Assembly: GCF_010726245.1 (NCBI RefSeq)
Contig: NZ_AP022561.1
Coordinates: forward strand, 4,650,001 to 4,714,000
Length of the DNA stretch: 64,000 nucleotides
Reading direction: 5' to 3'
Source: Mycolicibacterium aichiense
GTDB taxonomy: Bacteria; Actinomycetota; Actinomycetes; Mycobacteriales; Mycobacteriaceae
Both the position numbers and the translations under genes were made by a program. The notes under the pieces were generated by a model. The model made no database searches and was not told the origin of the DNA. It saw only the letters and a list, made by a program, of their open reading frames with translations. Positions 1-14,300 of this stretch are shown here, piece after piece; position 1 is the first letter of the stretch, and each line of letters begins with the position of its first letter.

Positions 1-1
1 G

Positions 2-634
2 CGCGGCGAGTTCCGGATCGGCACCGGCGGCGGTGTGGAGAACACCTCGATCCCGATGCTGCTGGGCGCGTTGCGCAAGGCTCACCCGGGCATCGACATA
101 CACCTCACCGAAGCGACGAGTACGCCCCTACTGGACATGGTGGTTCAGGGCCGGCTGCACGTCGCGGTGATCGCCCGACCGGACGGCACCCTGCCGGCGA
201 CGATCGCGAGCGCCCCGATGTTCTCCGGTCACCTGGTAGCGGTCTTCGACCCGGCGGTGTTCACCTTCGCCGAACCGGTGACAATCGCCGCGCTGAGCGG
301 CCATTCGGTGATCACCTACCCCGCGTCGAGTGCGCTGCGGTCACGCCTGGACACCGCCATCGCCGAAAGCGGAGCCGACATCACGGTCAACTACGTCGCC
401 AATGACGTTCGGCTACAGGTCTCGTTCGCCCGCCAGGGTGTCGGCGTCGCAATCTCCGCAGATTCAGATCCCGCCCTGCAGGACTGCCCCGACCTTGCGA
501 TTCGCACCCTCGCCCCGAGCGTTGGCTTCGACAAAATCCTGGTGTGGCGCAACGACATCGAGCCCGCCGCCGCCACCCAGGCCTTCTTCGGCGTCTGGAA
601 GGAATTCAGCACCGCGGCGCGCGAATCGGCCTGA
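2..634 (+). CDS. LysR-family transcriptional regulator, C-terminal part (5' end outside the window)
   Basis: The frame is already open at the window edge, so the N-terminal winged HTH and linker helix are missing. What remains, about 210 residues, is a LysR-type effector-binding domain: it begins with the family's usual entry into the first lobe (GEFRIGTGGG, then a PMLLGAL helix and the 'HPGIDIHLTEA' strand) and has the alternating alpha/beta layout of a type 2 periplasmic-binding fold. Such proteins bind a small ligand and control nearby or divergent genes. The stop lies 3 bp from the convergent hydrolase stop, so the regulated gene is probably upstream of the window. The family is secure; the ligand cannot be inferred. 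Confidence 0.85.
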   Translation, partial: RGEFRIGTGGGVENTSIPMLLGALRKAHPGIDIHLTEATSTPLLDMVVQGRLHVAVIARPDGTLPATIASAPMFSGHLVAVFDPAVFTFAEPVTIAALSGHSVITYPASSALRSRLDTAIAESGADITVNYVANDVRLQVSFARQGVGVAISADSDPALQDCPDLAIRTLAPSVGFDKILVWRNDIEPAAATQAFFGVWKEFSTAARESA

Positions 635-637
635 CGG

Positions 638-1462
638 TCAGGACCGGACGAACTCGAGCAGGTCGGCGTTGATCGTCTCGGCGTGGGTGGTGGGCATTCC
701 GTGCGGGAAGCCCGCATACGTCTTGAGCGTGCCGTTGGGCAGCAGCGCCGCCGACAACGGCCCCGCGTCGGCGTAGGGGACGATCTGGTCGTCGTCGCCG
801 TGCATCACCAAGACCGGGATTCCGATCCCCTTGAGGTCTTCGGTGAAATCCGTCTGCGAGAACGCCACTACGCCGTCATAGTGGGCCTTCGCTCCGCCGG
901 TCATGCCCTGGCGCCACCAGTTCGCGACGATCGCTTCAGAGAGTTCGACTCCGTCTCGGTTGAATCCGTAGAACGGACCGGCGGCCACCTCGCGATAGAA
1001 CTCCGAACGCCGGGTCGCAACCTGCAGCTGGAAGTCGTCGAACACCGACTTCGGGAGGCCACCGGGGTTGGCGTCGGTTTGCACCATCAACGGCGGGACC
1101 GACGAGATCAAAACGGCCTTGGCGGCGCGACTTTCGCCGTGGCGGGCCAGATACCGCACCACTTCCCCGCCGCCGGTGGAGTGCCCGATGTGCACCGCGC
1201 CGTGCAGATCGAGATGGGTGACGACTGCGGCGAGGTCGTCGGCATAGTGGTCCATGTCGTGACCTTCGGAGACCTGCTCGGAGCGGCCGTGTCCGCGCCG
1301 GTCGTGAGCCACCACCCGATAACCGTGGTTGACGAAGAACATCAGCTGCGCGTCCCAGTCGTCGGAGGACAGCGGCCAGCCGTGGCTGAACACGATGGGT
1401 TGCCCTGTGCCCCAGTCCTTGTAGTAGATCTCGACGCCGTCATCGGTGGTGATCGTCGGCAT
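638..1462 (-). CDS. alpha/beta hydrolase, non-haem chloroperoxidase / arylesterase type
   Basis: This 274-residue protein is a complete alpha/beta hydrolase. The oxyanion segment is SHGWP (about 26-30). The nucleophile elbow is GHSTGG, giving Ser95. The acidic residue lies in MHGDDDQ and the catalytic His in GFPHGMP near the C-terminus. The N-terminus (TTDDGVEIYYKDWG) is typical of the cofactor-free 'chloroperoxidase' esterases, which in vivo most likely act as esterases or perhydrolases. It has no signal peptide, so it is cytosolic. It is the last gene of a short minus-strand set with a flavin reductase-type protein and a second hydrolase. The natural substrate is unknown. Confidence 0.88.
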   Translation of the reverse strand: MPTITTDDGVEIYYKDWGTGQPIVFSHGWPLSSDDWDAQLMFFVNHGYRVVAHDRRGHGRSEQVSEGHDMDHYADDLAAVVTHLDLHGAVHIGHSTGGGEVVRYLARHGESRAAKAVLISSVPPLMVQTDANPGGLPKSVFDDFQLQVATRRSEFYREVAAGPFYGFNRDGVELSEAIVANWWRQGMTGGAKAHYDGVVAFSQTDFTEDLKGIGIPVLVMHGDDDQIVPYADAGPLSAALLPNGTLKTYAGFPHGMPTTHAETINADLLEFVRS

Positions 1463-1472
1463 GGCGCCCTTT

Positions 1473-2108
1473 CTAATTCTGTTGGTCGTCAGGTCTGGTC
1501 ATGCTGAACATCGAATCGTGGGTGATCGCGGCGTATGCGGCGGGCCCGCCCGCGCGCAGGATGGGCGCCGCGGCAGCGGTGTCGTAGACGCCGTCGACCA
1601 AGAGCTTTTGGTCGATATGGACGCCGACGACTTGTCCGATGACGAGCCAACTCTGCGACTCTTGCCCGTCGATGCCGGTCAGCCGGATCAACTGGGTCAG
1701 CTTGCATTCGAAGTTCACCGGACTCTCGCCGACCCGAGGAGCACTGACGAGACGGCTCGGCTCGGGTGTCAAACCGCTGCAGGCGAATTCGTCCTCGGTC
1801 GCGGGCTTAGAAGCCGATGTCAGGTTCATCGCCTCGGCCAGCGGGCGGGTGGCCAGGTTCCAGACGAACTCTCCAGTTGCCTCGACGTTGGCCACGGTGT
1901 CTTTCCAGCCGATCGAGGAGAACCCGATCAACGGCGGGGTGTAGCTGAAGGCGTTGAAGAAACTGTAGGGCGCGAGGTTGGCTATGCCTTCGGCGCTGCG
2001 GGTGGAGATCCAGCCGATCGGGCGCGGCCCGACGATCGCGTTGAACGGATCGTGCGCAAGCCCGTGTCCGTCCTCGGGTCGGTAGAAGTGTGTGTCGCCG
2101 GCGGCCAT
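1473..2108 (-). CDS. flavin reductase-like, FMN-binding split-barrel protein
   Basis: At 211 residues it matches the DIM6/NTAB-like flavoprotein group, the split-barrel FMN-binding fold. Visible family features are the NAIVGPRPIGWIST entry, SFFNAFSYTPPLIGFSS and the VWNLATRPLAEAMN stretch. Members bind FMN and either supply reduced flavin to a monooxygenase or act as oxidoreductases themselves. Its ATG overlaps the stop of the upstream hydrolase by one base (TGATG), so translation of the two is probably coupled. The pairing with two esterase-like hydrolases suggests a small catabolic or detoxification cassette; its substrate is inference only. Confidence 0.85.
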   Translation of the reverse strand: MAAGDTHFYRPEDGHGLAHDPFNAIVGPRPIGWISTRSAEGIANLAPYSFFNAFSYTPPLIGFSSIGWKDTVANVEATGEFVWNLATRPLAEAMNLTSASKPATEDEFACSGLTPEPSRLVSAPRVGESPVNFECKLTQLIRLTGIDGQESQSWLVIGQVVGVHIDQKLLVDGVYDTAAAAPILRAGGPAAYAAITHDSMFSMTRPDDQQN

Positions 2109-2824
2109 CAGACAGTGACCTCGGTGAGCGCCGCGCTGATCAATGCTGCGACCTCCTGTGGGTGCGAGAGCGTCACCAGATGTGACGAGTTGATCTCCAT
2201 TGTGGTCGCACCGGCACGTTGATAGCCGAACCGCTGCACGTCGGGGTTGATCGCGTGGTCATCGGCGGCGACGACGGCCCAGGACCGCTTGGATCGCCAG
2301 GCGGCCCCTGGCGCCGCCTCGACGAATGCAGCGGCGGCCAGCGGTCGCTGCGAAACCGCCAGTGTGGCAATCAGTTCGGGGTCGACGTCGGCACCGATCA
2401 CCGGCCCGAAGCGCTCCGGCACAACCGTGACGTCGACGCGGGCTTCACCGGCCACCGACGCGGGCACATCGGTCTGCACCAGCGCGGCGGTCAATTCCGA
2501 ATCCGGGAAGCCGCCCTGGAGTTCGGCCAGGCTCTCACCTTCGTCGAGGGCATAGCCGGCCAGATACACCAAACCGACGACGTTGTCGGCGGCGCCGGCC
2601 ACCGTGATCACCGCACCGCCATAGGAATGACCGACGAGCAGGACGGGGCCGTCGAGCTGTTCGACGACAAACCGGATCTCGCGGGCATCTCCGAGCAGGC
2701 TGCGATTGGGCACTGCGGGTGCCAGCACCGAAATACCCTCGTCGAGCAACGCTTTCGTGACCGGGGCATATGTGGACGCATCAGCGAACGCGCCGTGGAC
2801 CAGGACAACGGTCGGTTGGGGCAC
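2108..2824 (-). CDS. alpha/beta hydrolase (small esterase-like)
   Basis: This 238-residue protein begins with the oxyanion strand VVLVHGAFAD, which places the catalytic fold at the very start with no leader peptide. The nucleophile elbow is GHSYGG, giving Ser67. A C-terminal histidine falls in 'SSHLVTLSHPQ'. This is the compact EstC/RsbQ-like alpha/beta hydrolase type that is common next to oxidoreductases in actinomycetes. It is the first gene of the set and is coupled by a one-base overlap to the flavin-reductase gene. Function beyond esterase or lactonase chemistry cannot be stated. Confidence 0.87.
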   Translation of the reverse strand: MPQPTVVLVHGAFADASTYAPVTKALLDEGISVLAPAVPNRSLLGDAREIRFVVEQLDGPVLLVGHSYGGAVITVAGAADNVVGLVYLAGYALDEGESLAELQGGFPDSELTAALVQTDVPASVAGEARVDVTVVPERFGPVIGADVDPELIATLAVSQRPLAAAAFVEAAPGAAWRSKRSWAVVAADDHAINPDVQRFGYQRAGATTMEINSSHLVTLSHPQEVAALISAALTEVTV

Positions 2825-2870
2825 AGGTGCTCAGCTCCTCAGCGGGTCGAGAGTTCGGGTCCGGGACGCG

Positions 2871-3344
2871 TCAGCGCCGGAGCAGGTAGGTGTGCTGACC
2901 GTCGAGCACCAATTCACCGCGCTGATTGTGCACGGTCGCCGCGGTGGTCACGCGGCCGAGTTCACCGGCGTCGGACAACGAGATGATCTCGAGCTGCGGG
3001 TACAGCGTGTCACCGGCGTGGACTTCGCCGAGGAAGCGACAGGACACACTCTCGAAGCTGACGAACACCTCGCCGATGATGTGGGGAAAGGGGGTGGCGC
3101 CGGGGGCGGTGAACGCCAACACCTGAAGGCCGTGCACCACCGGGGCGACATGGCCGTGCGCCCGGGCCCACTCGACGTCGTAGTGCACGGGATGGTTGTC
3201 CGCCGAGACCGCCTGAAACACCGAGGCGTGCGCGTCGGTGACAGTACGGCTGGGTGCGCGAAATATCTCGCCGACCTCGAGCTGGCCGTACGTTCTTGGT
3301 GTGACCAGCGTGAAGTTGTCGACAGAGAACCCGGACTGCGGCAC
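2871..3344 (-). CDS. MaoC-like hot-dog domain protein
   Basis: The protein has 157 residues. It carries an N-terminal helix, a 'VGEIFRAPSRTVTDAHASVFQAVSADNHPVHYD' type MaoC signature with the hydratase Asp/His pair (D..P.H), and the hot-dog strands 'DTLYPQLEI' and 'RGELVLDGQHTYLLRR'. MaoC proteins hydrate trans-2-enoyl thioesters or act as accessory acyl-CoA dehydratases. The start is a GTG with a good AAGGAG ribosome-binding site 8 nt upstream. It is the last gene before the tRNA-associated island. Substrate chain length is unknown. Confidence 0.85.
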   Translation of the reverse strand: MPQSGFSVDNFTLVTPRTYGQLEVGEIFRAPSRTVTDAHASVFQAVSADNHPVHYDVEWARAHGHVAPVVHGLQVLAFTAPGATPFPHIIGEVFVSFESVSCRFLGEVHAGDTLYPQLEIISLSDAGELGRVTTAATVHNQRGELVLDGQHTYLLRR

Positions 3345-3486
3345 GCAGCGTCTCCTTCGGACGGGCCGGTCGACGCTGACCTGCTGACGATGATGCGATC
3401 CACGCTGCCGAAATCAGCGGGCGATGTCCAAGAGGGAACGCTGCGACCAGCCATAGGCAGGGCCGATGGGTCGCCGCGGGCGGCAG

Positions 3487-3529
3487 GTGCCCCCAGTCGG
3501 ACTCGAACCGACACTGTGCGGATTTTAAG
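3487..3529 (-). repeat. left tRNA-Leu 3'-end fragment (att-like repeat 1)
   Basis: The stretch repeats the 3' half of the intact tRNA-Leu gene at about 10 kb. It has the acceptor 3' strand (GTGCCCCCAGT), a T-arm, and a 19-bp perfect match ending in the anticodon region (ACACTGTGCGGATTTTAAG, 3511-3529 against 10002-10020). Identity stops exactly after the anticodon. The T-stem differs in sequence (CGGAC...GTCGG instead of GAGAC...GTGAG) but remains base-paired, so this is a diverged tRNA end rather than random decay. It is interpreted as the outer attachment remnant of an element integrated into the tRNA gene. Confidence 0.85.
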
Positions 3530-3539
3530 ATCGCAATAC

Positions 3540-3838
3540 TAACGTTTCGCCGGCTCGCAGCCAGTCTCGGATTCTTACGGTTATTGCTCGTTCATCTCGT
3601 TAAGACATTGCACGGCAAAGGCTTTGGTTGGCGAACGATTGCGGTCCTCCTGAGTCGCTTGCGGGCTTCATGCGGACTGGCTGCGGACTGAGATCGGACT
3701 TCGCAGGGCCCATGCACCGCCCGTTCGCCGTCGGTGACTTCAAACTATGTTGGTCTTCCTGCGGGATTCTCGCGAGCATTCACTGGTTGAGACGGAACTA
3801 CTCAGCAACAGGACGCTCCGGCCGCTCTAAGTCGCTAC
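3540..3838. other. Non-coding stretch between att remnant and structured leader
   Basis: No credible coding frame is present: the open frames on both strands are short and lack codon bias or family resemblance. The stretch holds the TGCGGACTG repeats and probably the promoter that drives the downstream leader RNA. I cannot place -35/-10 boxes with confidence; a TATGTT near 3745 is only a weak -10 candidate. Confidence 0.4.
3671..3700. repeat. TGCGGACTG repeats near left island end
   Basis: Two copies of TGCGGACTG lie at 3671-3679 and 3682-3690, 11 bp apart, followed by a partial ATCGGACT at 3693-3700. The same nonamer, in the same orientation, appears at 9913-9921 and 9941-9949 (plus CGCGGACTG at 9924-9932), just inside the right end. 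Short direct repeats near both ends of an island are what arm-type integrase binding sites look like. That role is inferred, not shown. Confidence 0.5.
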
Positions 3839-3839
3839 T

Positions 3840-4130
3840 GCGGATGTCGCCGGGGGCCAGTCGCTCGCCACGGCAAGAAGCCGACTGGGCAAGGCGACGT
3901 GGGTTAGCGCCTTCTACCGCGCAAATATGAGCCGCGGCTTGTTTCCATGCGTATGATCCGATGCGGGTCCCAAGAGGGGCTAGGCCTGGCGTCGGTAGCG
4001 AGTAGGGGAACGGGTTGATCACCGCCTACTCACTCGAGGCTTCGACACGTTCGGAGCAGTGAAAGCATAATTTCGTATGACGCGAAGCCGGTTAGGGGTC
4101 GGGCGGTCCGCCTGGCCCCTAATTTCTTTG
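3840..4130 (+). ncRNA. Candidate structured RNA encoded upstream of the reverse transcriptase
   Basis: The 290 bases before the RT contain no plausible gene but hold several consecutive stems. GTCGCC (3846-3851) pairs with GGCGAC (3893-3898), enclosing CCAGTCG (3857-3863) with CGACTGG (3882-3888). AGCCGCGGCT (3930-3939) is a perfect palindrome. GAGTAGG (4000-4006) pairs with CCTACTC (4025-4031). GGCTTCG (4038-4044) pairs with CGAAGCC (4083-4089). A final hairpin with a T-rich tail spans 4092-4129. Known retrons and several defence RTs (DRT2 and DRT9 are established cases) carry a template or cofactor RNA directly upstream of the RT. The 5' end is not determined and could lie further left. Existence as a transcript is inference. 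Confidence 0.5.
4092..4129 (+). terminator. Terminator-like hairpin 20 bp before the RT start codon
   Basis: TTAGGGG (4092-4098) pairs with CCCCTAA (4116-4122), and inside it GGCG/CGCC can pair. The stem is followed directly by TTTCTTT (4123-4129). It sits immediately in front of the RT ribosome-binding site (AGGAG, 4132-4136). It could end the leader RNA so that only read-through yields RT mRNA, or it could be the 3' structural element of a functional RNA. Confidence 0.6.
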
Positions 4131-4142
4131 TAGGAGAACACG

Positions 4143-5672
4143 ATGTGGTGGAAACTGCAAGAGAAACTTGAGCTGGCGTCCAACCGACTGATCAAGGAGC
4201 ACGAAGAGTACGCCAAGTGGGTTATCGACGAAAACGCTCGCAGATCGCGACGCTGCACTGAGACGCCCGAATTGCTGAGTGTTCAGCGGCCCCCGACCTG
4301 GCAAAAAACACCTGGCTTCAACCCCTATTTAGTACGCGCCCGCGCCTCGTCCATTGCGCACGCCATGACCGCTCGCCTCAAAGGCGGCTACTACGTTCCG
4401 CACGCGCCCGCACAGTTTCAGGTAGATAAGGCTGGCGGCGGTAAGCGAACCATCACGACGTTCGAGATAGCGGACGAAGTAATTTCGAACCGGCTCCTCC
4501 GATCACTGTCCCGCAAGAACTTGTCAAAGATGAGTTCGCGATCCTACGCATACCGACCGGGCCTATCTCCACATGATGCTTTGTCCTACGCAAGGTACGA
4601 ACTCAAGACCAAGCATCGACTTTTCGTTGCAGAATACGACTTCACCAAATTCTTTGACAGAATAGATCACGACTATCTCTTCAAGGCCATGCAGCGTTTG
4701 GATATAATAATGACCCCCCTTGAGGAGAGTCTCATCCGTTCGTTTCTAAGTATCCGCCCAGTGGAAATCGAATCCACAGGCGGGGATGAAATAAAATCAG
4801 GCGCAGTAGGACTGGCCCAGGGAACGTCGATAAGCCTCTTCCTAGCGAATATCGCCGCGACCGAGATGGACCGCGAACTTGAGCGACTAGGTGTTGGCTT
4901 TGTGCGCTATGCGGACGATACGTTGATATGGAGTTCTGATTACGGACGAATCTGTAGTGCGGCCGAGCTTCTGCATGAGGCGGCCGAGCAGATAGGCTCC
5001 CCAATCAACGTCAAGAAGAGCGAAGGCATCCGCCTCCTGGTGCGGAATGCCGGAGCCAAGACGGAACTCAACAAGGCCACATCGATCAACTATTTGGGAC
5101 ATTCTTTAACACTGCGCGATATGCGTATTGGAGAAAACGCCGTTGAACGAATTAAACAAAAGATAAGCGGATTCATCTACAATAACCTCATTCGTGAACC
5201 ACTTCGCCATCAGCAGTCGCCGAGTCAACTAACAGTTAATGATCGGGACTACGTCACATGCCTATTGCAGATTCGTAGATATATATATGGCCCACTCAGC
5301 GAGAAGGAAATCCGCCGATACTTAGATGGGACGGTTCCATTCATGCGCTTTGAAGGCGTAATGGCGTTCTATCCACTAGTGAATGATAACGCACAGTTGC
5401 GCGCCCTCGATGGATGGTTATCTAACCAAGTCTGGCTCGCCACTCGCCGGCGACGTAATCTCCTAACCGAACAAGGCTTACCTACCCCGAGGCCACTCGG
5501 GTTATCGAAGCAAGAACTTGTCGGCTTCAAGACGACCTCTTCAACCAGCGGCCGTGATGTCGACCTACGAATTCCGAGCTTCCTCCGCATCTCAAAGGTT
5601 CTTCGTGAGGCAACAGAGACCTACGGATTCAGCGTTGTGCCCGGGGGCGCCACGCTGTACGCATACGACTAG
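4143..5672 (+). CDS. Reverse transcriptase, probable defence-associated (DRT/unknown-group) type
   Basis: The 509-residue protein has a full RT palm. Motif A is FVAEYDFTKFFDRIDH with Asp166. Motif B is GLAQGTSIS (Gln226-Gly227). The catalytic motif is YADD at 256-259. A downstream NYLGHSL block lies at about 316-322. There is an N-terminal helical segment of about 60 residues and a C-terminal region of about 180 residues with no recognised domain. It has no group II intron maturase or HNH region, and I see no retron VTG signature. This single-protein layout, with a non-coding leader upstream, fits the bacterial 'unknown group'/DRT reverse transcriptases. The ATG has AGGAG 6 nt upstream. Codon use is clearly less GC-rich than the host, consistent with transfer. 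RT activity is near certain; the DRT class is not assigned. Confidence 0.85.
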   Translation: MWWKLQEKLELASNRLIKEHEEYAKWVIDENARRSRRCTETPELLSVQRPPTWQKTPGFNPYLVRARASSIAHAMTARLKGGYYVPHAPAQFQVDKAGGGKRTITTFEIADEVISNRLLRSLSRKNLSKMSSRSYAYRPGLSPHDALSYARYELKTKHRLFVAEYDFTKFFDRIDHDYLFKAMQRLDIIMTPLEESLIRSFLSIRPVEIESTGGDEIKSGAVGLAQGTSISLFLANIAATEMDRELERLGVGFVRYADDTLIWSSDYGRICSAAELLHEAAEQIGSPINVKKSEGIRLLVRNAGAKTELNKATSINYLGHSLTLRDMRIGENAVERIKQKISGFIYNNLIREPLRHQQSPSQLTVNDRDYVTCLLQIRRYIYGPLSEKEIRRYLDGTVPFMRFEGVMAFYPLVNDNAQLRALDGWLSNQVWLATRRRRNLLTEQGLPTPRPLGLSKQELVGFKTTSSTSGRDVDLRIPSFLRISKVLREATETYGFSVVPGGATLYAYD

Positions 5673-5690
5673 CGAGACCTGCTCATATTA

Positions 5691-5713
5691 GTGCCCCCAA
5701 TGAGACTCGAACC
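5691..5713 (-). repeat. internal tRNA-Leu 3'-end fragment (att-like repeat 2)
   Basis: GTGCCCCCAATGAGACTCGA at 5691-5710 matches the end of the intact tRNA-Leu (9978-9997) with a single mismatch and then diverges within a few bases. It starts 18 bp after the RT stop. A third copy of the tRNA end inside the island is expected if two elements inserted one after the other at the same tRNA gene, so it marks the border between the RT compartment and the ATPase/HEPN/integrase compartment. Confidence 0.75.
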
Positions 5714-5741
5714 GGGCCGACCGGACGACTTGGGGCCCAAC

Positions 5742-8030
5742 TCATGCAATGGCATGCGCATCTGCACCTGTGGCCTGACACATTCGCTCAAAATGCTCTG
5801 GGTCTGCGAATTTGAAAAACTTCATACATCGGCGAATCTGACCATGTACTACGCGCCCATCGAGCACGTCGATGCTTTCATGCCCCTCCCCATGCGAGAA
5901 TCGGTTACAGAAGTCGTAGACGTCGCGATACGGATTTTCGGTAGCAACGTCCATTAATGACGCTAGGCGCTGATCGAAGTTGCCGAGGTGCGGTGCCTTA
6001 TAGCTGGTAAAGACTTCCAATACGCGACGGGCCGCATTCGGCAAGAGAAACAGACGGTCGTGACTAGGTCCGTTGGCCACACCGTCCATCACTTGCCTGA
6101 ACAGGTAGGCATACTCCGTGGTCTGTTGCAGCAGCATCGCAGGTAGTGGTGCGATCCTGGTGCGGCGAACACCTTGGTCCAATGAAGCGTACATCTCAAG
6201 AAAGGTGGCCTTGGGAAACCGCGCCTCGTCGGCGTTCTGCTCTTTGAGGATCTTCCTCCGCGAGTCGCTCCATGCGTTCTTCTGCGATTTAAGGAAGAGT
6301 CCAAGAAGCCCGAAATCATGGGTGAGAACAACGAACTGCCCGAACCCCCTAAGCGAGTCGACAAGCCACTGATGCGTTGCGAATAACGCTTCGCGGTCAA
6401 GCGAACTCGACGGATCATCAATAACGACGAGGCGTGCAGCTTTGTCGCCACTTACGGTCTCGTCTTCCAGTTTGCGAAGGAAATAGAGCAGCGACAATGT
6501 GGTGCGCTCGCCGTCGCTTAGGTGGGTGGCCGGGGCACCCCCGCGGAGGCATGCGTACGATTTTCCGTCGTCCGTGACGCCAACACTGAGGTGGTCTTTG
6601 CCATACACGCGGGCTGAGTCCTTGGTAAGCGTCTCGGCCATCTGGCTGTTTGAGAATTGCTGTTGACGGATCGCTGCGAGTGTCCTTGAAGCAAGATCAG
6701 CAGCATCATTTGCGGCCTTCGCATCTGCTTGCGCACCCTGCGCAGCCGATTCTGCGTTGCGAAAGGCTTCACTCCGCGAGCCAAGAATATGGTTCAAGAC
6801 CGTCTCGTAGCGAGCTTCAACGACGACATTGTGTTGATCAGCCTGCTCATTGTGCTCGGCAACAGCCTGCTGCAAAGGAGCACACAATAGATCGGTAGCA
6901 AGTATGTTCACATCCGGTACCCCTGGCGTGACGCTTGGGTCATCGGCCTTAAGTTGGAGTGCTTTCCTCACCTCTTCCAGCGCCGCGAGCCGCGCCGCCA
7001 CCTCCGCCGCGACCACCTTCACATGGACGCCGTACCCGTCGCGGACCTCACTACACAGTTCCTTCGGGTCTGGCATGTTAGCGAGCCAGCCCTCGAAAGC
7101 CACCTTTGTTGCATTGACCTGTTGGAGCAACGAAAGCGCACGCTCACGGATCTGAAACCAGCTTTGGTCGAAGTGCTTGGCTAGCTTCGCACGACGCTCG
7201 TTCGTAAGCGGTCCCGCGCAGAAGAGGCACTCGTCCAGATGCTCGTGAAGCGGCATGCCTTGTTCAACCCATGCCTGCCGAACTTGGTCAGCGGCAAGCG
7301 TTTCGAGGGCGACGCGAGTTGGTGTTTCAGCGAGCAAGGCACCAAGGACCTCAAGATCGACCACCCGTCCGGTAGGTGGGTCCGGAATTGCTCTCACACG
7401 GTCGGCAGCGCCTTCCCCGAGTCGCTTAAGAGCCTCAGCGTGTTGGCTCTCATCAGGGAACTCCCCGTTGTAGTCGCGAAGCTTCCCCTCAACGACGGGC
7501 ATTGAGTAGCGATTCTTGGAGAAGCGCTGGTAGTCGAATTCACGCAGTTGATCGGCCACGGCGTTCTGAGCGGCGGTGGCAAGCTTCCGCGCCCTCGAAG
7601 TGTGATCCTGCCGCTTCTTGTCCGCCTCTTGGGCCTTAGCGCGATGGTCTTCGATCTGCCGTGATAACTCCTTCTCCCGCTCCTTCGCTTCGATCGCCTC
7701 TTCGCCGAGCGTCACGATGGGGGAAGCAGTTGCTCCGTCGAGGAACTGCGACAGGTTGCGTTGTACCCACGCCTTCGTGAACACCGCGACAGCAGGCGAC
7801 GGTCCGCCGTGCCCTGCACGCACGGTGTGCTGCTGTCCATTCTCGTCTTCCCACAGAACCTCGGTGGAACTGCCATCGGAAGCGATCTCGAAGAGCAGCG
7901 ACGCGAACGAGGATTTTCCGCTTCCGTTGTGGCCGTAGATAACCGAGCGCTTACCCAACGGCAGGTCAGCCGGCCAGAATCCTCTGCTCAACGAGCGATA
8001 CGAACCGGTAGGTTCTAAACGACGAAGCAT
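5742..8030 (-). CDS. RloC/PrrC-like ABC-type ATPase with zinc hook (AAA_13 family)
   Basis: This 762-residue protein has an ABC/SMC-type ATPase head split by coiled coil. Walker A is GHNGSGKSS (33-41). The signature LSDGE lies near 504, Walker B LVVIDD at about 534-539, D-loop SSLD, and the switch His in VLTHD at about 571. The central coiled coil carries C268-L-F-C271, the CxxC of a Rad50/RloC zinc hook. The C-terminal region has R668-x3-E672 and a later His (NRFSH, about 713), an arrangement reminiscent of the Arg-Glu-His triad of PrrC/RloC anticodon nucleases. Those relatives cut tRNA during phage infection. It shares strand and compartment with the HEPN gene 244 bp upstream. ATPase family is secure; the nuclease triad is a hypothesis. 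Confidence 0.82.
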   Translation of the reverse strand: MLRRLEPTGSYRSLSRGFWPADLPLGKRSVIYGHNGSGKSSFASLLFEIASDGSSTEVLWEDENGQQHTVRAGHGGPSPAVAVFTKAWVQRNLSQFLDGATASPIVTLGEEAIEAKEREKELSRQIEDHRAKAQEADKKRQDHTSRARKLATAAQNAVADQLREFDYQRFSKNRYSMPVVEGKLRDYNGEFPDESQHAEALKRLGEGAADRVRAIPDPPTGRVVDLEVLGALLAETPTRVALETLAADQVRQAWVEQGMPLHEHLDECLFCAGPLTNERRAKLAKHFDQSWFQIRERALSLLQQVNATKVAFEGWLANMPDPKELCSEVRDGYGVHVKVVAAEVAARLAALEEVRKALQLKADDPSVTPGVPDVNILATDLLCAPLQQAVAEHNEQADQHNVVVEARYETVLNHILGSRSEAFRNAESAAQGAQADAKAANDAADLASRTLAAIRQQQFSNSQMAETLTKDSARVYGKDHLSVGVTDDGKSYACLRGGAPATHLSDGERTTLSLLYFLRKLEDETVSGDKAARLVVIDDPSSSLDREALFATHQWLVDSLRGFGQFVVLTHDFGLLGLFLKSQKNAWSDSRRKILKEQNADEARFPKATFLEMYASLDQGVRRTRIAPLPAMLLQQTTEYAYLFRQVMDGVANGPSHDRLFLLPNAARRVLEVFTSYKAPHLGNFDQRLASLMDVATENPYRDVYDFCNRFSHGEGHESIDVLDGRVVHGQIRRCMKFFKFADPEHFERMCQATGADAHAIA

Positions 8031-8274
8031 GGAGCGACTTTAGCGAGGCCAGGCGACAGGTTCGGCCCAAATTCGGCCCGCGCGGCGCAACTGGCGTAAG
8101 CCGCTGCTCTAGATCGACTTGTTTCAAATCTAATATTGGTGGGTGCTCAAAAGTCGGAGCAGTTGTATCCGAGCGATTGCTCGCACGATCCGCAGCACCA
8201 AGGAGTAGGGCGACCGCGACGCCGGGTCGGTCGGCGGCGCGCCCGGCAAGACCGTCGAAGTCCAACGTCGCTGA

Positions 8275-9438
8275 TCAAGCTGTGTTCGTATGCAGGAGGC
8301 TGGCGAGGGGATACGCCTCTTCGACAACGGCAGTAGCCATGTCGACTGCCGTCTGCGCCTGCTCGTCTGTCAATGCGTGACCGCGGTGAGTTGCGTAATT
8401 CCGCGGCTTAATAAGGTCTTCATCTAGTCGGTGGGATAGCAGCCCCTTGCGCAGGTCCCTCAGCAATCGTGCGCGTCCCTCGAGCGCTCGATACCTCGCG
8501 TCTAGTGCTTTCTTCACTATATCGGTGGTGTTGGCCGTAGCGAGGTAGTTGTCGATGAGCTTAGTCATTGCAAGCTCTGCTGCAGTCGCAGCGTCAATTA
8601 CCGCCCTCCGCGTCTGACCTGTGTTCAACAGTGAACGCGCATCACGAATCAACATCCATTCCGTCGGGGGTGCACCTCCGTCGCCGGTAGCGGCTATGCA
8701 CGCCTGGAGATTCTGTAGCTCCAAGGGGGTTGGCTGTACACGATTTTCAGTCGCGTACCCATAACTTTCTTCGCTCATGCGCTGCCCGTCCGCATCCGTT
8801 GTCCACGCCTCAACGTTCCAGCTTTTGTAGAAGAAGGCCGCCGAGATCCCTGAATTGCCGCCGCCGATCTGTACGAAGTCTTGCGATGTCAAAATGCTTA
8901 CCCAAGAAGTGAAGCGCGCCCACCAATCCTCAAGCTCCATCACGAATTTATCGGCGGCAGCTTCGAATTCCTCGTCGGTGGACGCCGTCAGCGATGTGTA
9001 GAACCGGCAGCGCAAGACGCGGAACTGGACCTCGTCTAACTCATCATCGTCCACCGGTAGACCGGCCAGTGAAAGCAGCGCCCGCACTTTCAGCGTGCCG
9101 AGGTCCGGAAGCACGAGCCCCCAGGCGTCCTGGTCCTGATCCTCATCCTCGTCGATTGGGCCATAGGTCCATCGAGGCGAACGCAGCGTCGGATGCGGGC
9201 GACGCGTGTCAAGCTGCGGCAAGCTGATAATGATGTCGTGGTTCGCGGTCCGCGACTTGAACTCTCCGCTCAAGCAATCCGGCGTCACGATGAGCCCCTG
9301 ACCCCCACACTCAAAATGTCCCTCCAGCGGCCACTCTCTCGCTACGCGGTCGCCTGAAGAATCATCGTCGGCCATCCGTGCATCATTCCAGCGGAGAATT
9401 GGGCGCACCATCGAATGAGTCTGTTCAGTGCCGGTCAC
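8275..9438 (-). CDS. HEPN-motif protein of unknown function (putative RNase effector)
   Basis: This 387-residue protein has no overall family I can name. The N-terminal 220 residues are beta-rich with an acidic patch (DEDEDQDQD). The C-terminal third is helical and contains RNYATH at 346-351, which fits the R-x4-6-H active site of HEPN ribonucleases, preceded by the usual 'AVIDAATAAELAMTKLI' helix. HEPN proteins are frequent RNA-cutting effectors or toxins in defence islands. The GTG start at 9438 has GGAG 7 nt upstream; an ATG at 9375 is the main alternative. Its 5' end overlaps the tail of the integrase remnant. Pairing with the downstream ATPase suggests a two-gene module; this is inference. 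Confidence 0.62.
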   Translation of the reverse strand: MTGTEQTHSMVRPILRWNDARMADDDSSGDRVAREWPLEGHFECGGQGLIVTPDCLSGEFKSRTANHDIIISLPQLDTRRPHPTLRSPRWTYGPIDEDEDQDQDAWGLVLPDLGTLKVRALLSLAGLPVDDDELDEVQFRVLRCRFYTSLTASTDEEFEAAADKFVMELEDWWARFTSWVSILTSQDFVQIGGGNSGISAAFFYKSWNVEAWTTDADGQRMSEESYGYATENRVQPTPLELQNLQACIAATGDGGAPPTEWMLIRDARSLLNTGQTRRAVIDAATAAELAMTKLIDNYLATANTTDIVKKALDARYRALEGRARLLRDLRKGLLSHRLDEDLIKPRNYATHRGHALTDEQAQTAVDMATAVVEEAYPLASLLHTNTA

Positions 9439-9962
9439 GCAACCGCTCCGTTCCCCACTTGGGCACGATCACCACGTCTAGCAAGCTCCGGTAACCGGCA
9501 GCCGTCTTAGGTGCCCGGTTAGCAGCCTTAGCCGCAAACCAAGTCTCAGCCACGGTCCCGAAGGTCACAGCGGAGGTGCGGATCGGCATATGTGCCGGTA
9601 ATCAGCGCCGTCGTGATCCCATCAATGTGGCGCTTCGCATCGGCGCGCCGGTCAAACGCCGTTCTGCGCTCCTGGCCGTCGTGGTCCACCCACCGAGCTA
9701 GCCAACGCTTGCCCTGGCCGTGACGCACGGTACATACCAGCGCGCCACTCTTGCCGTGCTTCGGGTCGGTACACCAGACCGGGCCAGGCATGTTGGCAGC
9801 GGGCCAGTTGACCTGTTCGCCGCGCCGCGCTGGCCGGTGCCAACGGTCCTCCTCGCCTGCCCGGTCGTTTCGCTTGGTCGGTGCGCTCATGGTCCGCAGC
9901 ATGGAAGATCGCTGCGGACTGTACGCGGACTGACGCGCCGTGCGGACTGGCCGCTTCGGCAT
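9425..9962 (-). pseudogene. Frameshifted and truncated phage-type integrase
   Basis: The first part encodes an arm-binding N-terminal region of a tyrosine integrase (KRWLARWVDHDGQERRTAF... ending GTYADP). The frame then shifts near 9565: the reading continues in another frame as TFGTVAETWFAAKAANRAPK..., a typical core-binding (SAM-like) domain start, and stops after RLRDRH at 9425. The shift is explained by loss of two bases in a CG-repeat (DPR would become DPH). No catalytic domain with the R...HxxR...Y residues follows. The start is uncertain (ATG at 9962, 9902 or 9890). This was the integrase of the right-hand element, placed next to the tRNA as usual. Confidence 0.78.
9913..9949. repeat. 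TGCGGACTG repeats near right island end
   Basis: TGCGGACTG at 9913-9921 and 9941-9949, and CGCGGACTG at 9924-9932, lie between the integrase start and the tRNA. The same nonamer occurs twice at 3671-3690 inside the left end. Position and spacing suggest integrase arm sites; unproven. Confidence 0.5.
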
Positions 9963-9978
9963 ATTTCCTGTTAAACCG

Positions 9979-10052
9979 TGCCCCCAGTGAGACTCGAACT
10001 CACACTGTGCGGATTTTAAGTCCGCTGCCTCTGCCAATTGGGCTATGGGGGC
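9979..10052 (-). tRNA. tRNA-Leu (anticodon UAA)
   Basis: The 74-nt gene folds as a cloverleaf. The acceptor stem is GCCCCCA/TGGGGGC. The anticodon stem is GCGGA/TCCGC with loop CTTAAAA, so the anticodon is UAA and decodes UUA. The T-arm is GTGAG-TTCGAGT-CTCAC. The variable loop is only five bases (ACAGT), which is unusual because bacterial tRNA-Leu normally has a long variable arm. CCA is not encoded (discriminator A followed by CGG). It is the attachment site for the island: its 3' half is repeated at 3487-3529 and, in part, at 5691-5713. Confidence 0.93.
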
Positions 10053-10285
10053 GCGCGCCGGGCGATCGGCGCGCCCATGACGTTAGCGCGTGCGACCTCG
10101 GGCTCCGATGACCACGGGGCCGGCGAAACCTGCGTCGCACCCCAGGTCACCGCCGAGAACGCCGCGGATCACAGGGAGTGCCGACTGAAGTCATTGGTAA
10201 CTCACAGCTTTCACCCAGTTCAGAGCCGTAATTCACAGCGAGCTGCGCTACGGTGAAGGGGCGACAGAGCCTGGCTCTTCTCGCG

Positions 10286-10323
10286 GAAAGGCCCGGCGGC
10301 CCCCCCGACAGCCGGGCTTTTTC
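10286..10323. terminator. Bidirectional rho-independent terminator
   Basis: GCCCGGC (10291-10297) pairs with GCCGGGC (10311-10317). The stem is extended by GGAAA on the left and TTTTTCC on the right. The A- and T-runs allow termination in both directions. It lies downstream of dctA. Confidence 0.75.
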
Positions 10324-10353
10324 CGTTTCACGACCATGTTCGCCTCCGGACGG

Positions 10354-10390
10354 CACGACACCCCGGGGGAAGGGCTCCCGGGGTGTCGTG
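10354..10390. terminator. Long hairpin directly after dctA
   Basis: A perfect 14-bp stem, CACGACACCCCGGG (10354-10367) with its complement (10377-10390), surrounds a 9-base loop, 10 bp after the dctA stop. There is no long T-run, so it may act with the T-tailed hairpin at 10286-10323 or protect the mRNA 3' end. Confidence 0.65.
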
Positions 10391-10400
10391 AGCTTGGCGA

Positions 10401-11777
10401 TCAGGCCGCGACTGCCTCCTTTTGTGACGCCGGCGGGTGATCGTTGTCGAGCATGGTGACCTCGTCGAACGGATCGCTGCCGGACAGCACGCGGTCGACC
10501 TTGGCCGTGTCCACCGTCTTGGTCCACGAACCCACCAGCAGAGTGGCCACCGCGTTGCCGGAGAAGTTGGTCACCGCGCGGGCCTCGGACATGAATCGGT
10601 CGATCCCGACGATCAGGCCGACCCCGTCGAGCATCTCCGGCCGATGGGCCTGCAGGCCGCCGGCCAGCGTCGCCAGCCCGGCCCCGCTCACCCCGGCCGC
10701 ACCCTTGGACGCCACGATCATGAACACCAGCAGACCGATCTGCTCCCCCACCGACAGCGGGTCGCCGAGCGCATCGGCGATGAACAACGACGCCATCGTC
10801 AGGTAGATCGCGGTGCCATCCAGGTTGAACGAATATCCGGTCGGCACAACCACACCCACGGTGCTCTGCTGCACACCAAGGTGCTCCATCTTCGCGATCA
10901 GCCGCGGCAGCGCCGACTCCGAGGACGACGTGGCGAAGATCAGCAGGTACTCCCGCGCCAGGTAGCGGACCAGTTTGAAGATCGACACCCCGGCCACCAT
11001 CCGCAGCAGCGCGCCGAGCACACCGAACACGAACACCACGCACGTCAGGTAGAAGCCCAGCATCAGCACCAGCAGGTTGGTCACCGCGCTCCACCCGGTC
11101 TGGCCCACCACATTGGCCATCGCACCGAACGCGCCAATCGGGGCCAGCCACAACACCATTGCCAGGATCTTGAACACCAGCCGCTGCAGATGCTCCACCC
11201 CACGCAGGATCGGCTCACCCTTGGTGCCCATCGCCTGGATCGCGAACCCGACCAGCAGCGCCACGAAAAGTCCTTGCAGCACATTGCCGTCCGTCAGTGC
11301 GGAGAACAGCGACGTCGGAATGATGTGCTGGATGAACTCGATCAAACCGCCCGACTCGTGCGCCTGCTCGGCCAGTTGCGCTCCCTTGCCGGCCGTCGAC
11401 TCCGAGAGCTTGAGGCTGCTGCCGGGATGCAGCAGGTTGCCGACCAACAGGCCGATGCCCAGCGCGATCGTCGACATCACCAGGAAGTAGCCGAACGCCA
11501 ACCCGCCGACCTTGCCGACGGTGGCGGCTTTGCGTACCGATCCGATACCCAGCACGATCGTGCAGAAGATCACCGGGACGATCATCATCTTGATCAGGGC
11601 GACGAACATCGTGCCCAGAACGCCGACGTCCTTGCCGATGCCGGGGGCCATCAGACCGACGGCGACGCCGCCGACCACCGCGAGGATGACAGCGATGTAC
11701 AGCCAGTGGGTGCGATCCCGGCGCTTGGGCGCGGGGGGTTTCTCATCGCCGCCTGGACGATCCACAACCGTGGTCAT
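10401..11777 (-). CDS. dctA: C4-dicarboxylate / cation symporter, DctA type
   Basis: The 458-residue membrane protein belongs to the dicarboxylate/amino acid:cation symporter family. It has a cytosolic N-terminus (to about residue 25), several hydrophobic helices, the re-entrant serine-rich hairpin SSSES before ALPRLI, NLDGTAIYLTMASLFIA in helix 7, and ARAVTNFSGN in helix 8, which forms the substrate site. It imports C4-dicarboxylates such as succinate, fumarate and malate with protons or sodium. It is divergent from a CitA/DcuS-type kinase and its response regulator, which probably control it. Assignment to DctA rather than a glutamate carrier rests on context and overall resemblance. Confidence 0.88.
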   Translation of the reverse strand: MTTVVDRPGGDEKPPAPKRRDRTHWLYIAVILAVVGGVAVGLMAPGIGKDVGVLGTMFVALIKMMIVPVIFCTIVLGIGSVRKAATVGKVGGLAFGYFLVMSTIALGIGLLVGNLLHPGSSLKLSESTAGKGAQLAEQAHESGGLIEFIQHIIPTSLFSALTDGNVLQGLFVALLVGFAIQAMGTKGEPILRGVEHLQRLVFKILAMVLWLAPIGAFGAMANVVGQTGWSAVTNLLVLMLGFYLTCVVFVFGVLGALLRMVAGVSIFKLVRYLAREYLLIFATSSSESALPRLIAKMEHLGVQQSTVGVVVPTGYSFNLDGTAIYLTMASLFIADALGDPLSVGEQIGLLVFMIVASKGAAGVSGAGLATLAGGLQAHRPEMLDGVGLIVGIDRFMSEARAVTNFSGNAVATLLVGSWTKTVDTAKVDRVLSGSDPFDEVTMLDNDHPPASQKEAVAA

Positions 11778-11832
11778 GAGCGGTTTCCTTCCGGTGTGAC
11801 GGCAATAGGTCTGAAAGGATGGTTTACCCTCA

Positions 11833-11848
11833 CGTGACGCAGGTCACG
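11833..11848. promoter_or_regulatory. CRP-like palindrome between dctA and the kinase gene
   Basis: CGTGACGCAGGTCACG is a perfect inverted repeat of the form GTGA-N6-TCAC, the half-site spacing used by CRP/FNR-family regulators. It sits in the 105-bp divergent spacer, 35 bp before the kinase start and 56 bp before dctA. Either a Crp-type protein or the adjacent response regulator could bind it. Confidence 0.5.
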
Positions 11849-11882
11849 CTTTAGTTCATTACGTTCATCGCGGAGGTGGGCA

Positions 11883-13415
11883 GTGGCCGTACTGCCGCGC
11901 TCCCTGGCGGGCCAGGCCTTCGCGCTGCAGGCCGCGGTAATCCTGCTGGTGGTGATGGCAGGCAGCGCATTGGCCCTCTTCGATGCGAAACGCCACGGCG
12001 ACGAAGCCGCCCGTCAGCAGGTCACCGCGATCGCCGTCGCCCTGGCTGACGCGCCGTCCACGGCGGAAGCGATCGAAAGCAGCAACGCTGCACGGGTTCT
12101 GCAGCCGGTCACCGAGGCGGTCCGCAAGAGCACCGGCATCGCCTTCATCACGATCATGGCGCCCGACCGCACCCGGTTCACCCACACCAACCCCGAGCAG
12201 ATCGGCCAGAAGTACATCGGGACCATCGAGCCGGCGTTGCGCGGCGACGTCTTCACCGAGGTCTACACCGGCACCCTCGGTCCGTCGGTGCGCACCATCG
12301 CGCCGGTGCGCAGTGACAGCGGACAGGTCATCGGGCTTGTCGCCGCCGGCATCACGCTCGAAAGCCTCTCCGCGCGCTGGCGTTCGCAATGGCTGATGAT
12401 CGTCGGCGTTGCGGCCGGGGCACTGGCCCTGTCCTTCGTCGGCATCTGGGCGATCCGACGGCGCGTCCTGCACCAGACCCACGGCCTGGCGCCCGACGAG
12501 CTGCGCGTGATGTACGACCACCACGACGCCATCCTGCACTCGGTCTCCGAAGGGCTGATCGTGTTGGACCGCAGCGGCGTCGCACTGGCCAACGACGAAG
12601 CCCGACGCCTGCTGGCCCTGCCTGCCGGCCCGATAACCCGGGCCGATCTGCCAGAGTTCCTGCGCGGCAACGACCCCGGTGTGCGTGACGAGGTCCGGCT
12701 CACCGATGACCGGGTACTGGTGGTCAACCGCTCCGCGGTCAGCGCGTCGGACAGCGAAGTCGTCACCATTCGTGACCGCACCGAATTACAAGGCGCGCTG
12801 GGCGAATTGAGTTCACTGCAGGGCTTTACCGACTCGCTGCGCGCACAGGCTCACGAGTCGGCCAACAAACTGCACACCGTCGTCACGCTGGTGGAGATGG
12901 GCCGTCCCGAGGAGGCCGTCAAGTTCGCCACCCAGGAACTGGCGCTGTCCCAGCAGCTCGTCGACCGGGTCTCCGACGCCGTCGGCGAACCCGCCCTGGT
13001 GGCGCTGCTGCTCGGCAAGACCGCCGAGGCCGACGAGCGCGGCATCGAGTTGACCATCACCGAAGAGACCCACCTGCCGGCCGAGGCATTGCTGAGCCCG
13101 CAGGAGATGGTCACTGTGCTGGGCAATCTGATCGACAACGCGATGGACGCGTGCGACCGCGACGACCCGTGGGTGGAGGTGACCGTCAACCAGAGTGACG
13201 AGCAGCTGCAGATCCAGGTCGCCGACAGCGGCCCCGGCATGGACCCCGACACCTTCGCACGCGCCAGGCAGCGCGGCTATTCGACCAAGTCCGGCGGCGA
13301 CCAAGGACACCAGGGCCTCGGGCTCGCGCTGGTCGCCCAGATCGTCAACCGGCACGGCGGCAGCTTGAGCGCCGACGTCACCTACGGCTCGGTGGTGACG
13401 GTGACGATCCGATGA
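11883..13415 (+). CDS. Sensor histidine kinase, CitA/DcuS family
   Basis: This 510-residue membrane kinase has an N-terminal transmembrane helix (about 14-32) and an extracytoplasmic sensor of about 130 residues of the single-Cache (CitA/DcuS) type. A second membrane helix follows at about 170-190, then a PAS domain with HSVSEGLIVLD. The dimerisation helix carries the phospho-His in QAHESANKLH. The ATPase domain has N-box NLIDNAMDA, G1 DSGPGM and G2 GLGLAL. The family senses carboxylates such as citrate or C4-dicarboxylates outside the membrane. The start is GTG (11883) with GGAGG about 5 nt upstream. It overlaps the response regulator by 4 bp and is divergent from dctA. Confidence 0.92.
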   Translation: MAVLPRSLAGQAFALQAAVILLVVMAGSALALFDAKRHGDEAARQQVTAIAVALADAPSTAEAIESSNAARVLQPVTEAVRKSTGIAFITIMAPDRTRFTHTNPEQIGQKYIGTIEPALRGDVFTEVYTGTLGPSVRTIAPVRSDSGQVIGLVAAGITLESLSARWRSQWLMIVGVAAGALALSFVGIWAIRRRVLHQTHGLAPDELRVMYDHHDAILHSVSEGLIVLDRSGVALANDEARRLLALPAGPITRADLPEFLRGNDPGVRDEVRLTDDRVLVVNRSAVSASDSEVVTIRDRTELQGALGELSSLQGFTDSLRAQAHESANKLHTVVTLVEMGRPEEAVKFATQELALSQQLVDRVSDAVGEPALVALLLGKTAEADERGIELTITEETHLPAEALLSPQEMVTVLGNLIDNAMDACDRDDPWVEVTVNQSDEQLQIQVADSGPGMDPDTFARARQRGYSTKSGGDQGHQGLGLALVAQIVNRHGGSLSADVTYGSVVTVTIR

Positions 13416-14089
13416 TCACCGTGCTGATCGTCGAGGACGAACCGCTGATCGCCGAAGCGCACAACGCGTATCTGTCTCGGCTGCAAGGCTTTACCGTCGC
13501 GGGCATAGCCAACACCGCACGCGACGCGATGCGCATCGCCGCCGAAGCCGAATCACCCGTCGACCTGGTGTTGCTCGACCTCGGCCTGCCCGACGCCAGC
13601 GGGATCGCCCTGGCCTCGGCGCTGTCCGGGCTGCGGCCCGCCCCCGACATCATCGCGATCACCTCCGAACGCGATCTGGAGATGGTGCGCGCCGCCGTCG
13701 CCCACGGTGCACTGGCCTACCTGCTGAAGCCCTTCACGTTCGCCGCGTTCCGCGACCGCCTCGAGCGCTACCGCCGCTACCGCGAGGCGTTGCCGGCGGG
13801 CACCGAGGCGGCCAGCCAGGCCGAGGTGGACCGTGCGCTGGCCGAGCTCCGCAGCACCGATAAGTCGGTGGCCCCCAAGGGCGCCGCACCCGGGACCACC
13901 GACGAGATCGCCCGCGCCGTGCGTGATCGCGCCGACGGGCTGACCGCCGACGAGGCCGCGAAACTGGTCGGCGTCTCCCGGGTGACGGCCTGGCGCTACC
14001 TGGAACGGCTGGCCGACGACGGCACCGTCACCCGCCTCACCGAATACGGCAAGACGGGTCGGCCGAGTACGCGCTACCAGTGGCGTTGA
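13412..14089 (+). CDS. Response regulator, CitB/DcuR family
   Basis: The 225-residue protein has a receiver domain with acidic pocket EDE (8-10), phospho-acceptor Asp56 in LLDLGLPD and the switch Lys in YLLKPF. The C-terminal HTH (LTADEAAKLVGVSRVTAWRYLERL) and the GRPSTRYQ tail are typical of CitB/DcuR regulators. It is translated from an ATGA overlap with the kinase, so the two form a pair. Probable targets are the divergent dctA and its own operon, perhaps through the palindrome in the dctA-kinase spacer. Confidence 0.93.
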   Translation: MITVLIVEDEPLIAEAHNAYLSRLQGFTVAGIANTARDAMRIAAEAESPVDLVLLDLGLPDASGIALASALSGLRPAPDIIAITSERDLEMVRAAVAHGALAYLLKPFTFAAFRDRLERYRRYREALPAGTEAASQAEVDRALAELRSTDKSVAPKGAAPGTTDEIARAVRDRADGLTADEAAKLVGVSRVTAWRYLERLADDGTVTRLTEYGKTGRPSTRYQWR

Positions 14090-14252
14090 GTGGTCGAGGG
14101 CGAGGCGATAGCCGTTTTTCCACAACGTGATATCGCCGGTGATATCGCGTTTCGGAAGAAGGTAGGCCCACGCGGCGGCGCGGCCCGCCCGGCGCCCCGT
14201 CGCGGCCCTTGCGAGACGGCTCCTTGCCCCCTTGCGTAGCCGGTCACAGCGT

Positions 14253-14270
14253 TACTAGGATGTCCTAGTA
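14253..14270. promoter_or_regulatory. Palindromic operator candidate before mmsA
   Basis: TACTAGGATGTCCTAGTA has perfect 8-bp arms around a 2-bp centre, 30 bp before the mmsA start, where a repressor would block the promoter. The arms themselves contain TAGGAT, which could double as a -10 box. The downstream MarR-type gene (17867-18388) is one possible ligand; a TetR elsewhere is equally possible. Confidence 0.6.
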
Positions 14271-14300
14271 TTCAGCCGGCAGGTCAGCCAAGGGGCAGTC

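Follow-up and report, generated by a model that had tools for sequence, protein, structure and literature searches.

The window is the whole 64,000-nt stretch analysed here, part of a 5.9-Mb host genome that forms one contig. Near its left end lies an intact open reading frame (4143–5672) for a 509-aa reverse transcriptase (RT) with a YADD motif at residues 256–259 (Y256–D259), as the earlier note had described. A structured RNA precedes the gene, and both sit in an island that ends at a tRNA gene. The features are as follows:

3487–3529, no strand assigned: left attachment-site repeat, a copy of the 3′ part of tRNA-Leu(TAA) (repeat match; L121 identity ends at 3529)
3952–3957, plus strand: -10-like element TATGAT, putative ncRNA promoter (recurrent TANNNT upstream of SL1)
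3962–4131, plus strand: DRT9 ncRNA of about 170 nt, with inferred ends (folding z, covariance model, covariation)
3966–3981, plus strand: SL1 (MFE helix; helix 1, 96.7% of cells paired, two-sided changes in 4 of 6 pairs)
3983–4089, plus strand: long-range closing stem P2, 3983–3994 with 4078–4089 (helices 2 and 3, 95.6% and 67.6% of cells paired; MFE)
3995–4035, plus strand: inner hairpin P4 (helices 4 and 5 of the covariation analysis; MFE)
4039–4057, plus strand: inner hairpin P5, SL5-like (helix 6, two-sided changes in 11 of 11 pairs; MFE)
4071–4073, plus strand: putative template UUU, 4 nt 5′ of the 3′ strand of P2; the tract is UUUU at most DRT9 loci
4090–4124, plus strand: terminator-like hairpin P6 (SL6), a 16-bp MFE helix (helix 7, two-sided changes in 14 of 14 pairs)
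4132–4136, plus strand: ribosome-binding site AGGAG (sequence)
4143–5672, plus strand: DRT9 (UG28) reverse transcriptase, 509 aa, ATG start (profile, PDB sequence, alignment, fold)
9978–10052, minus strand: tRNA-Leu(TAA), integration target and right end of the island (tRNA detection; L121 flank)

The RT is a member of DRT9 (UG28, treated in PMC8934634). In the comparison with DRT and unknown-group RT profiles that the earlier note had proposed, the PADLOC Drt9 profile matched residues 1–501 of 509 with 585.8 bits (E 1.7e-176), against 111.3 bits for the second-best family. The note's suggestion that the system might be undescribed falls away, since this family is already modelled in PADLOC. 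DRT9 was also the best match among PDB sequences (9ioa and five more entries, E 1.6e-91). An AlphaFold2 model of the RT (mean pLDDT 87.9, pTM 0.84) was compared with PDB chains using Foldseek; the top six were all DRT9, with a best TM of 0.88/0.90 (9vma), followed by a group II intron RT at 0.60/0.70. Because the alignment covers the entire protein, the fold match includes the N-terminal helix, predicted at residues 5–37, and the C-terminal extension. The 180-residue C-terminal region that had been described as lacking a recognised domain is the DRT9 thumb plus this extension, the end of which bears the priming tyrosines in the studied systems.

Matches to Pfam RVT_1 and to TIGR04416 (123.5 bits) could be read as signs of an RT from a group II intron, a retron or a DGR, with the RNA as an intron or an msr/msd. 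However, the TIGR04416 score lies far under its cut-off of 300, the best retron RT model reached 54.9 bits (cut-off 235), the full-length fold is that of DRT9, and Rfam gave only three matches at the locus, all of them below the gathering score (best E 0.76). The scores exclude a group II intron RT or maturase and a retron, as the earlier note had argued, and family scores together with the fold rule out a DGR origin as well; we regard this whole class of explanations as extremely improbable.

The residues that matter in the studied DRT9 systems were compared across 73 RTs aligned to E. coli DRT9 (L125); L020, L028, L045, L047 and L074, whose RTs are cut, fragmentary or interrupted, were kept out of the residue counts and the tree. 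YADD and the equivalents of the latch/lock residues K98, R104 and R140 of E. coli DRT9—K96, R102 and R138 in the window RT—are identical in all 73. The NTE tyrosine, Y23 in the window RT, stands at the Tyr25 column, where 60 of the 73 RTs have tyrosine. R205 and K208 contact SL4 of the RNA in the E. coli DRT9 tetramer (PMC12489045); their columns are not conserved among the 73 RTs, and the window has K and A there. Tail tyrosines were counted directly in the last 14 residues, because MAFFT misaligned the Y496/Y498 columns (A and D in the window): at least one is present in 71/73 RTs and at least two in 63/73, and only L024 and L077 have none. The window tail, LYAYD, carries Y506 and Y508 where SenDRT9 has NYDYE (Y496, Y498), and this tyrosine-bearing segment is modelled with pLDDT <50. 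Compared with G845, the RT gene has a dN/dS of 0.068 at a dS of 0.172, indicating purifying selection.

Upstream of the gene, a structured leader of 290 nt had been proposed, of which the downstream part stood and the upstream part did not. Positions 3962–4131 fold at -76.8 kcal/mol, against -63.4 ± 4.14 for shuffled sequences (z -3.24, 0/200 as good), whereas 3840–3961 folds no better than its shuffles (z -0.13), which rules out structured RNA across the whole 290 nt. Since, in addition, the DNA match of the window to its mycobacterial relatives L007 and L008 starts only at 3970, the RNA appears to be about 170 nt long rather than 290. The MFE structure of 3962–4131 has seven helices, with P2 enclosing the hairpins P4 and P5 and the template region. 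The terminator-like hairpin that had been noticed directly before the ribosome-binding site is P6, which has a U-rich tail and lies immediately 5′ of AGGAG and the RT ATG. An upstream structured ncRNA with a long-range stem and a terminal hairpin, as expected of DRT9, is present. In 13 of 15 loci, against an expectation of 0.29, SL1 is preceded at a distance of 13–20 nt by a TANNNT element (at 13 or 14 nt in 12 of the 13), a recurrence that speaks for a separate ncRNA promoter.

A first covariance model (R1), built on a structure that RNAalifold derived from a plain MAFFT alignment, held only 13 pairs and gave at best E 0.66 on new loci. We put in its place R2, with 48 pairs drawn from recurrent single-sequence folds and 14 actinobacterial training loci. 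R2 matches the window, itself a training sequence, at 3962–4126 with 117.4 bits. When 16 actinobacterial RNAs, 15 of them distinct, were aligned by fitting to the model, 82.2% of cells were paired (62.0% when shuffled), two-sided changes occurred in 40 of the 48 pairs, and the covariation score was 0.515 against 0.194 for shuffled alignments (0/500 as high; slid versions at most 0.166). These pair counts lean towards the R2 structure, since the alignment was fitted to it; neither the single folds nor the matches to loci that had no part in training (L017, L019, G845, G909) share this bias. Single folds give the same layout in 8 of the 14 training sequences and in E. coli L125, and pair partly otherwise in the other six (L011, L013, L014, L015, L020, L035). 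The defence-type RT–RNA pair on the DRT2/DRT9 model proposed in the earlier note is thus borne out, the RT being DRT9 and the upstream RNA covarying; that homologous loci share a conserved RNA was a point on which the note had let its reading depend.

We then surveyed the distribution of both components. Searched against 74 sources with E up to 1, R2 recovered every one of its 14 training loci and, beyond them, L017 and L019 (E 1.3e-4). L025 (E 0.14) and L049 (E 0.94) matched weakly, at the correct position; two further hits (L009, minus strand; L066, at 5474) look false, and the actinobacterial loci L018, L022, L023, L024 and L028 were missed. The RT is present in 5 of 396 mycobacterial genomes, and among 392 genomes of the genus R2 finds the RNA directly upstream of the RT in those same five, including G845 and G909, which were absent from its training set. 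The one further match, in G230, is marginal (E 0.004) and likely due to chance, as the E-values are per genome. The RT occurs in 4/397 genomes of the order and, in a phylum draw of 396 genomes, in the window's own genome only, so DRT9 is rare there. Our literature search found no report of DRT9 in mycobacteria.

Of 55 non-actinobacterial loci, 47 were matched by a model of the E. coli-like RNA made in this study (R3; 14 sequences, RNAalifold structure), or 33/41 without its 14 training loci; the misses were L006, L025, L026, L030, L033, L066, L072 and L077, and the published model may reach further. R3 found no RNA in the 21 actinobacterial loci, window included, among which L028 is an RT fragment without identified RNA and L018 has its upstream DNA cut. 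With filters off, R3 gave the window 0.1 bits. Judged from these sequence models, the actinobacterial DRT9 RNAs appear strongly diverged from the E. coli-like type. In the RT tree, midpoint-rooted for drawing only, the actinobacterial RTs form one group of 21 rows (support 99/96), L025 and L077 come next (100/98), and the window clusters with G845, L007 and L008 (100/100); the position of L006 is unsure because of its very long branch. The more distant mycobacterial DRT9 L131 (G909; 43% identity) has a U3 template and lies near an AbiJ-like protein, a ThiF protein and a Hypoth_ymh protein.

The tRNA island named in the earlier note proved to be a bounded insertion. L121 (G095, same genus) is 94% identical to the window over 1–3529 and 93% over 9978–13260, with different content between, so that 3530–9977 is an insertion at tRNA-Leu(TAA). 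It is flanked by 43–48-nt repeats of the tRNA 3′ end (left repeat against 9978–10025: 48 nt at 88%, 43 nt at 90.7%). At the same tRNA-Leu site, L121 carries about 12 kb of other content (3283–15385), which marks the site as an integration hot spot. Between the RT and AAA genes, at 5691–5714, there is a third copy of the tRNA-Leu 3′ end (22 nt, 95%), a pattern that would fit the successive insertion of two cassettes.

Convergent with the RT lies an AAA_13 ATPase gene (5742–8030, minus strand; PADLOC candidate PDC-S06, 355.4 bits) with a dN/dS of 0.155. The 4.2-kb block of RT and AAA gene (3894–8131) is 95% identical in G845, where no tRNA was found within the 16 kb examined. The 387-aa product of the gene at 8275–9438 (minus strand) matched nothing in PADLOC, Pfam, NCBIfam, PHROGs or the PDB sequences. 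Beside tRNA-Leu, 9546–10037 (minus strand) is an apparent remnant of an integrase N-terminus, without a Pfam match, and is 70% identical to L122, which has at the same tRNA a full 429-aa ORF that we called integrase-like by eye.

Other DRT9 loci also adjoin tRNA genes. In M. porcinum (L008), DRT9 has tRNA-Gly(CCC) (3100–3173) on one side and a perfect 51-nt repeat of the tRNA's 3′ part (7878–7928) on the other; L007 has a tRNA-Ala 1.1 kb upstream, and the repeat looked for there was not found; in Ewingella (L031), DRT9 lies between two tRNA-Leu(CAA) genes (201–285 and 10489–10573) about 10 kb apart. As a rule for DRT9, tRNA linkage was rejected: a tRNA or tmRNA was present in 10 of 74 loci in the DNA examined, and 2 of the 5 mycobacterial loci have no tRNA in 15–16 kb.

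The mechanism of DRT9 has been established on SenDRT9, PsaDRT9 and E. coli DRT9 (PMC12483538, PMC12489045). In the picture drawn for SenDRT9 and E. coli DRT9, an oligomer assembles on the RNA as its scaffold, four uridines of the RNA template poly-dA, and tail tyrosines (Y496 and Y498 in SenDRT9) prime synthesis; poly-dA accumulates through phage nucleotide metabolism together with a phage DNA-end-binding protein, and ExoI clears it in uninfected E. coli, silencing DRT9 (PMC12483538, PMC12489045). The four uridines are reported as conserved (PMC12483538, PMC12489045). Deletion of one of them, U124, abolished defence by SenDRT9, and the model behind the claim of universal poly-U conservation covers 201 systems and was seeded on SenDRT9 (PMC12483538).

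The uridine run that DRT9 RNAs carry shortly before the closing stem's 3′ strand is represented in the window by a putative U3 template. We assigned U-tracts by hand with script-checked contexts (the U4 of L034 was read by eye) in 75 of 78 loci, leaving out L006, L028 and L030 and treating L077 as ambiguous. Nine loci have U3, 52 U4, 13 U5 and one U8, the last being L037, where the eight-U tract lies upstream of the RT. On the RT tree, U3 requires three changes, on three branches, which may be gains or losses. That actinobacterial DRT9 forms a distinct branch with its own RNA type and a three-uridine homopolymer template on three separate lineages is plausible, though on balance we would bet against it. 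In its own MFE structure, the window UUU pairs with GAAA (4061–4064) to form a weak 4-bp helix; in single folds of several relatives, the tract is unpaired. On a Thioclava plasmid, the DRT9 locus L006 (2799–2988; Drt9 484.3 bits), which adjoins a SLATT gene, has AACUUAGAUUAUCUACC within the closing stem of its single fold and no U run at the usual place; could it be a DRT9 with a mixed template?

What such a template yields can be read in more than one way. With positions counted by eye from the closing stem's 3′ strand, the mycobacterial clade has A where the usual tract has its first U, and all four close mycobacterial RNAs share an unchanged GCAUAAUUUC. Both would fit a DRT9 with a changed product, in which the U3 template in its 5′-AAUUU-3′ context is read through or re-aligned to give short or A-rich DNA with T, and DRT10 illustrates that related RTs copy mixed templates in telomerase-like fashion (PMC12632851). 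Yet the two bases 5′ of UUU vary among the three U3 lineages (AA, CA, UG), so that no common repeat is seen and slippage poly-dA would be the one product these lineages could share; we consider a changed product unlikely.

A short template could also signify loss of function in a decayed or inactive DRT9, the locus being a remnant. The island integrase appears cut short, and G845, whose RT is 98% identical, keeps a UUUU further 5′ that is absent from the window. In the template region of its RNA (L126/L130), GCATAATTTC is preceded by 10 additional nt, GCATCATTTT; this near-duplication supplies a UUUU 5′ of the UUU. But the window RT is intact and evolves at the low dN/dS given above, the RNA stems are intact, and UUU stands at the same place in L007 and L008, whose RTs are about 66% identical, and is hence old and kept. 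Decay is very unlikely.

We consider it highly probable that the locus is a chromosomal DRT9 antiphage system, in which protein-primed, RNA-templated poly-dA synthesis leads to abortive infection. This preferred reading builds on family membership, the structure and covariation of the RNA and purifying selection on the RT, and equally on the presence of the catalytic, latch and tail residues and the co-occurrence of RNA and RT. The 170-nt RNA, encoded just upstream of the RT gene, would have a promoter to itself. By analogy with SenDRT9 and E. coli DRT9, the RT would bind this RNA as a scaffold that probably drives oligomerisation, and the RNA may present its uridine tract to the active site. 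One C-terminal tyrosine (Y506 or Y508) would then prime DNA synthesis, and the RT would copy the UUU tract repeatedly, with slippage, into long protein-attached poly-dA, as its studied relatives do on four uridines. The trigger, on the same analogy, may be a phage infection that raises dATP or protects the DNA end, and the infected cell would stop growing or die. A nuclease other than ExoI may act as silencer. We infer slippage synthesis on three uridines and this other nuclease because the parts of DRT9 visible in sequence are all present except the fourth uridine and ExoI. Against a DRT9 mechanism here stand the U3 tract itself, given the effect of the U124 deletion, and its pairing in the window's own MFE structure, as well as the unconserved R205 and K208 columns, the low-confidence tyrosine tail and the failure to find ExoI.

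A search of the host genome for PF08411, the C-terminal family of ExoI, found no member (as a control, it was positive in E. coli only, of 14), so regulation must differ from that in E. coli. An Lsr2-domain protein is present in the host genome. Lsr2 binds AT-rich DNA, and this is only a lead. H-NS and StpA co-purify with the DRT9 RT in E. coli (PMC12483538).

The locus is a real DRT9, ordinary in kind, with an unusual host, a divergent RNA type and a departure in the template. The family and its poly-dA mechanism were already known; new are the divergence of the actinobacterial RNA and the U3 template, found in 9/75 loci on three branches. Natural U3 templates on separate branches make the minimal homopolymer template directly testable: if the reading of a distinct actinobacterial branch with U3 on three lineages is true, either a template of three bases is enough or the product has ceased to be pure poly-dA. 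It would also mean that DRT9 can stay silent without ExoI, and a host in which ExoI was not found turns the degradation of poly-dA in uninfected cells into a testable question. The divergent RNA type also cautions that an RNA model trained on E. coli-like systems may overlook those of an entire phylum.

Among known systems, DRT10 (UG17) shares ncRNA-templated, protein-primed synthesis of repetitive DNA by a UG RT, but it requires a SLATT protein and copies an A-B-A' template (PMC12632851), whereas the template in the window is a putative U-tract; the RT_UG17 profile gives the window RT only 77.6 bits against 585.8 for Drt9, which places it outside UG17. DRT2 (UG2) likewise combines an RT with an upstream structured ncRNA but makes a concatemeric gene from a long template (PMC12483538); the Drt2 profile reaches only 65.3 bits, and the fold match is weak (9c0i, TM 0.45/0.52). 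From the studied DRT9 systems (SenDRT9, E. coli; PDB 9ioa, 9nlv, 9vma) the window differs in an RT identity of 34–36%, an RNA missed by R3, U3 for U4, the lack of a SLATT match among the neighbouring proteins searched, and a host in which ExoI was not found. With them it shares an RT-only protein of about 500 aa bearing YADD, the latch/lock residues, the N-terminal helix and two tail tyrosines, and the plan of the upstream ncRNA: SL1, a long closing stem, inner hairpins, a U-tract and a terminal hairpin.
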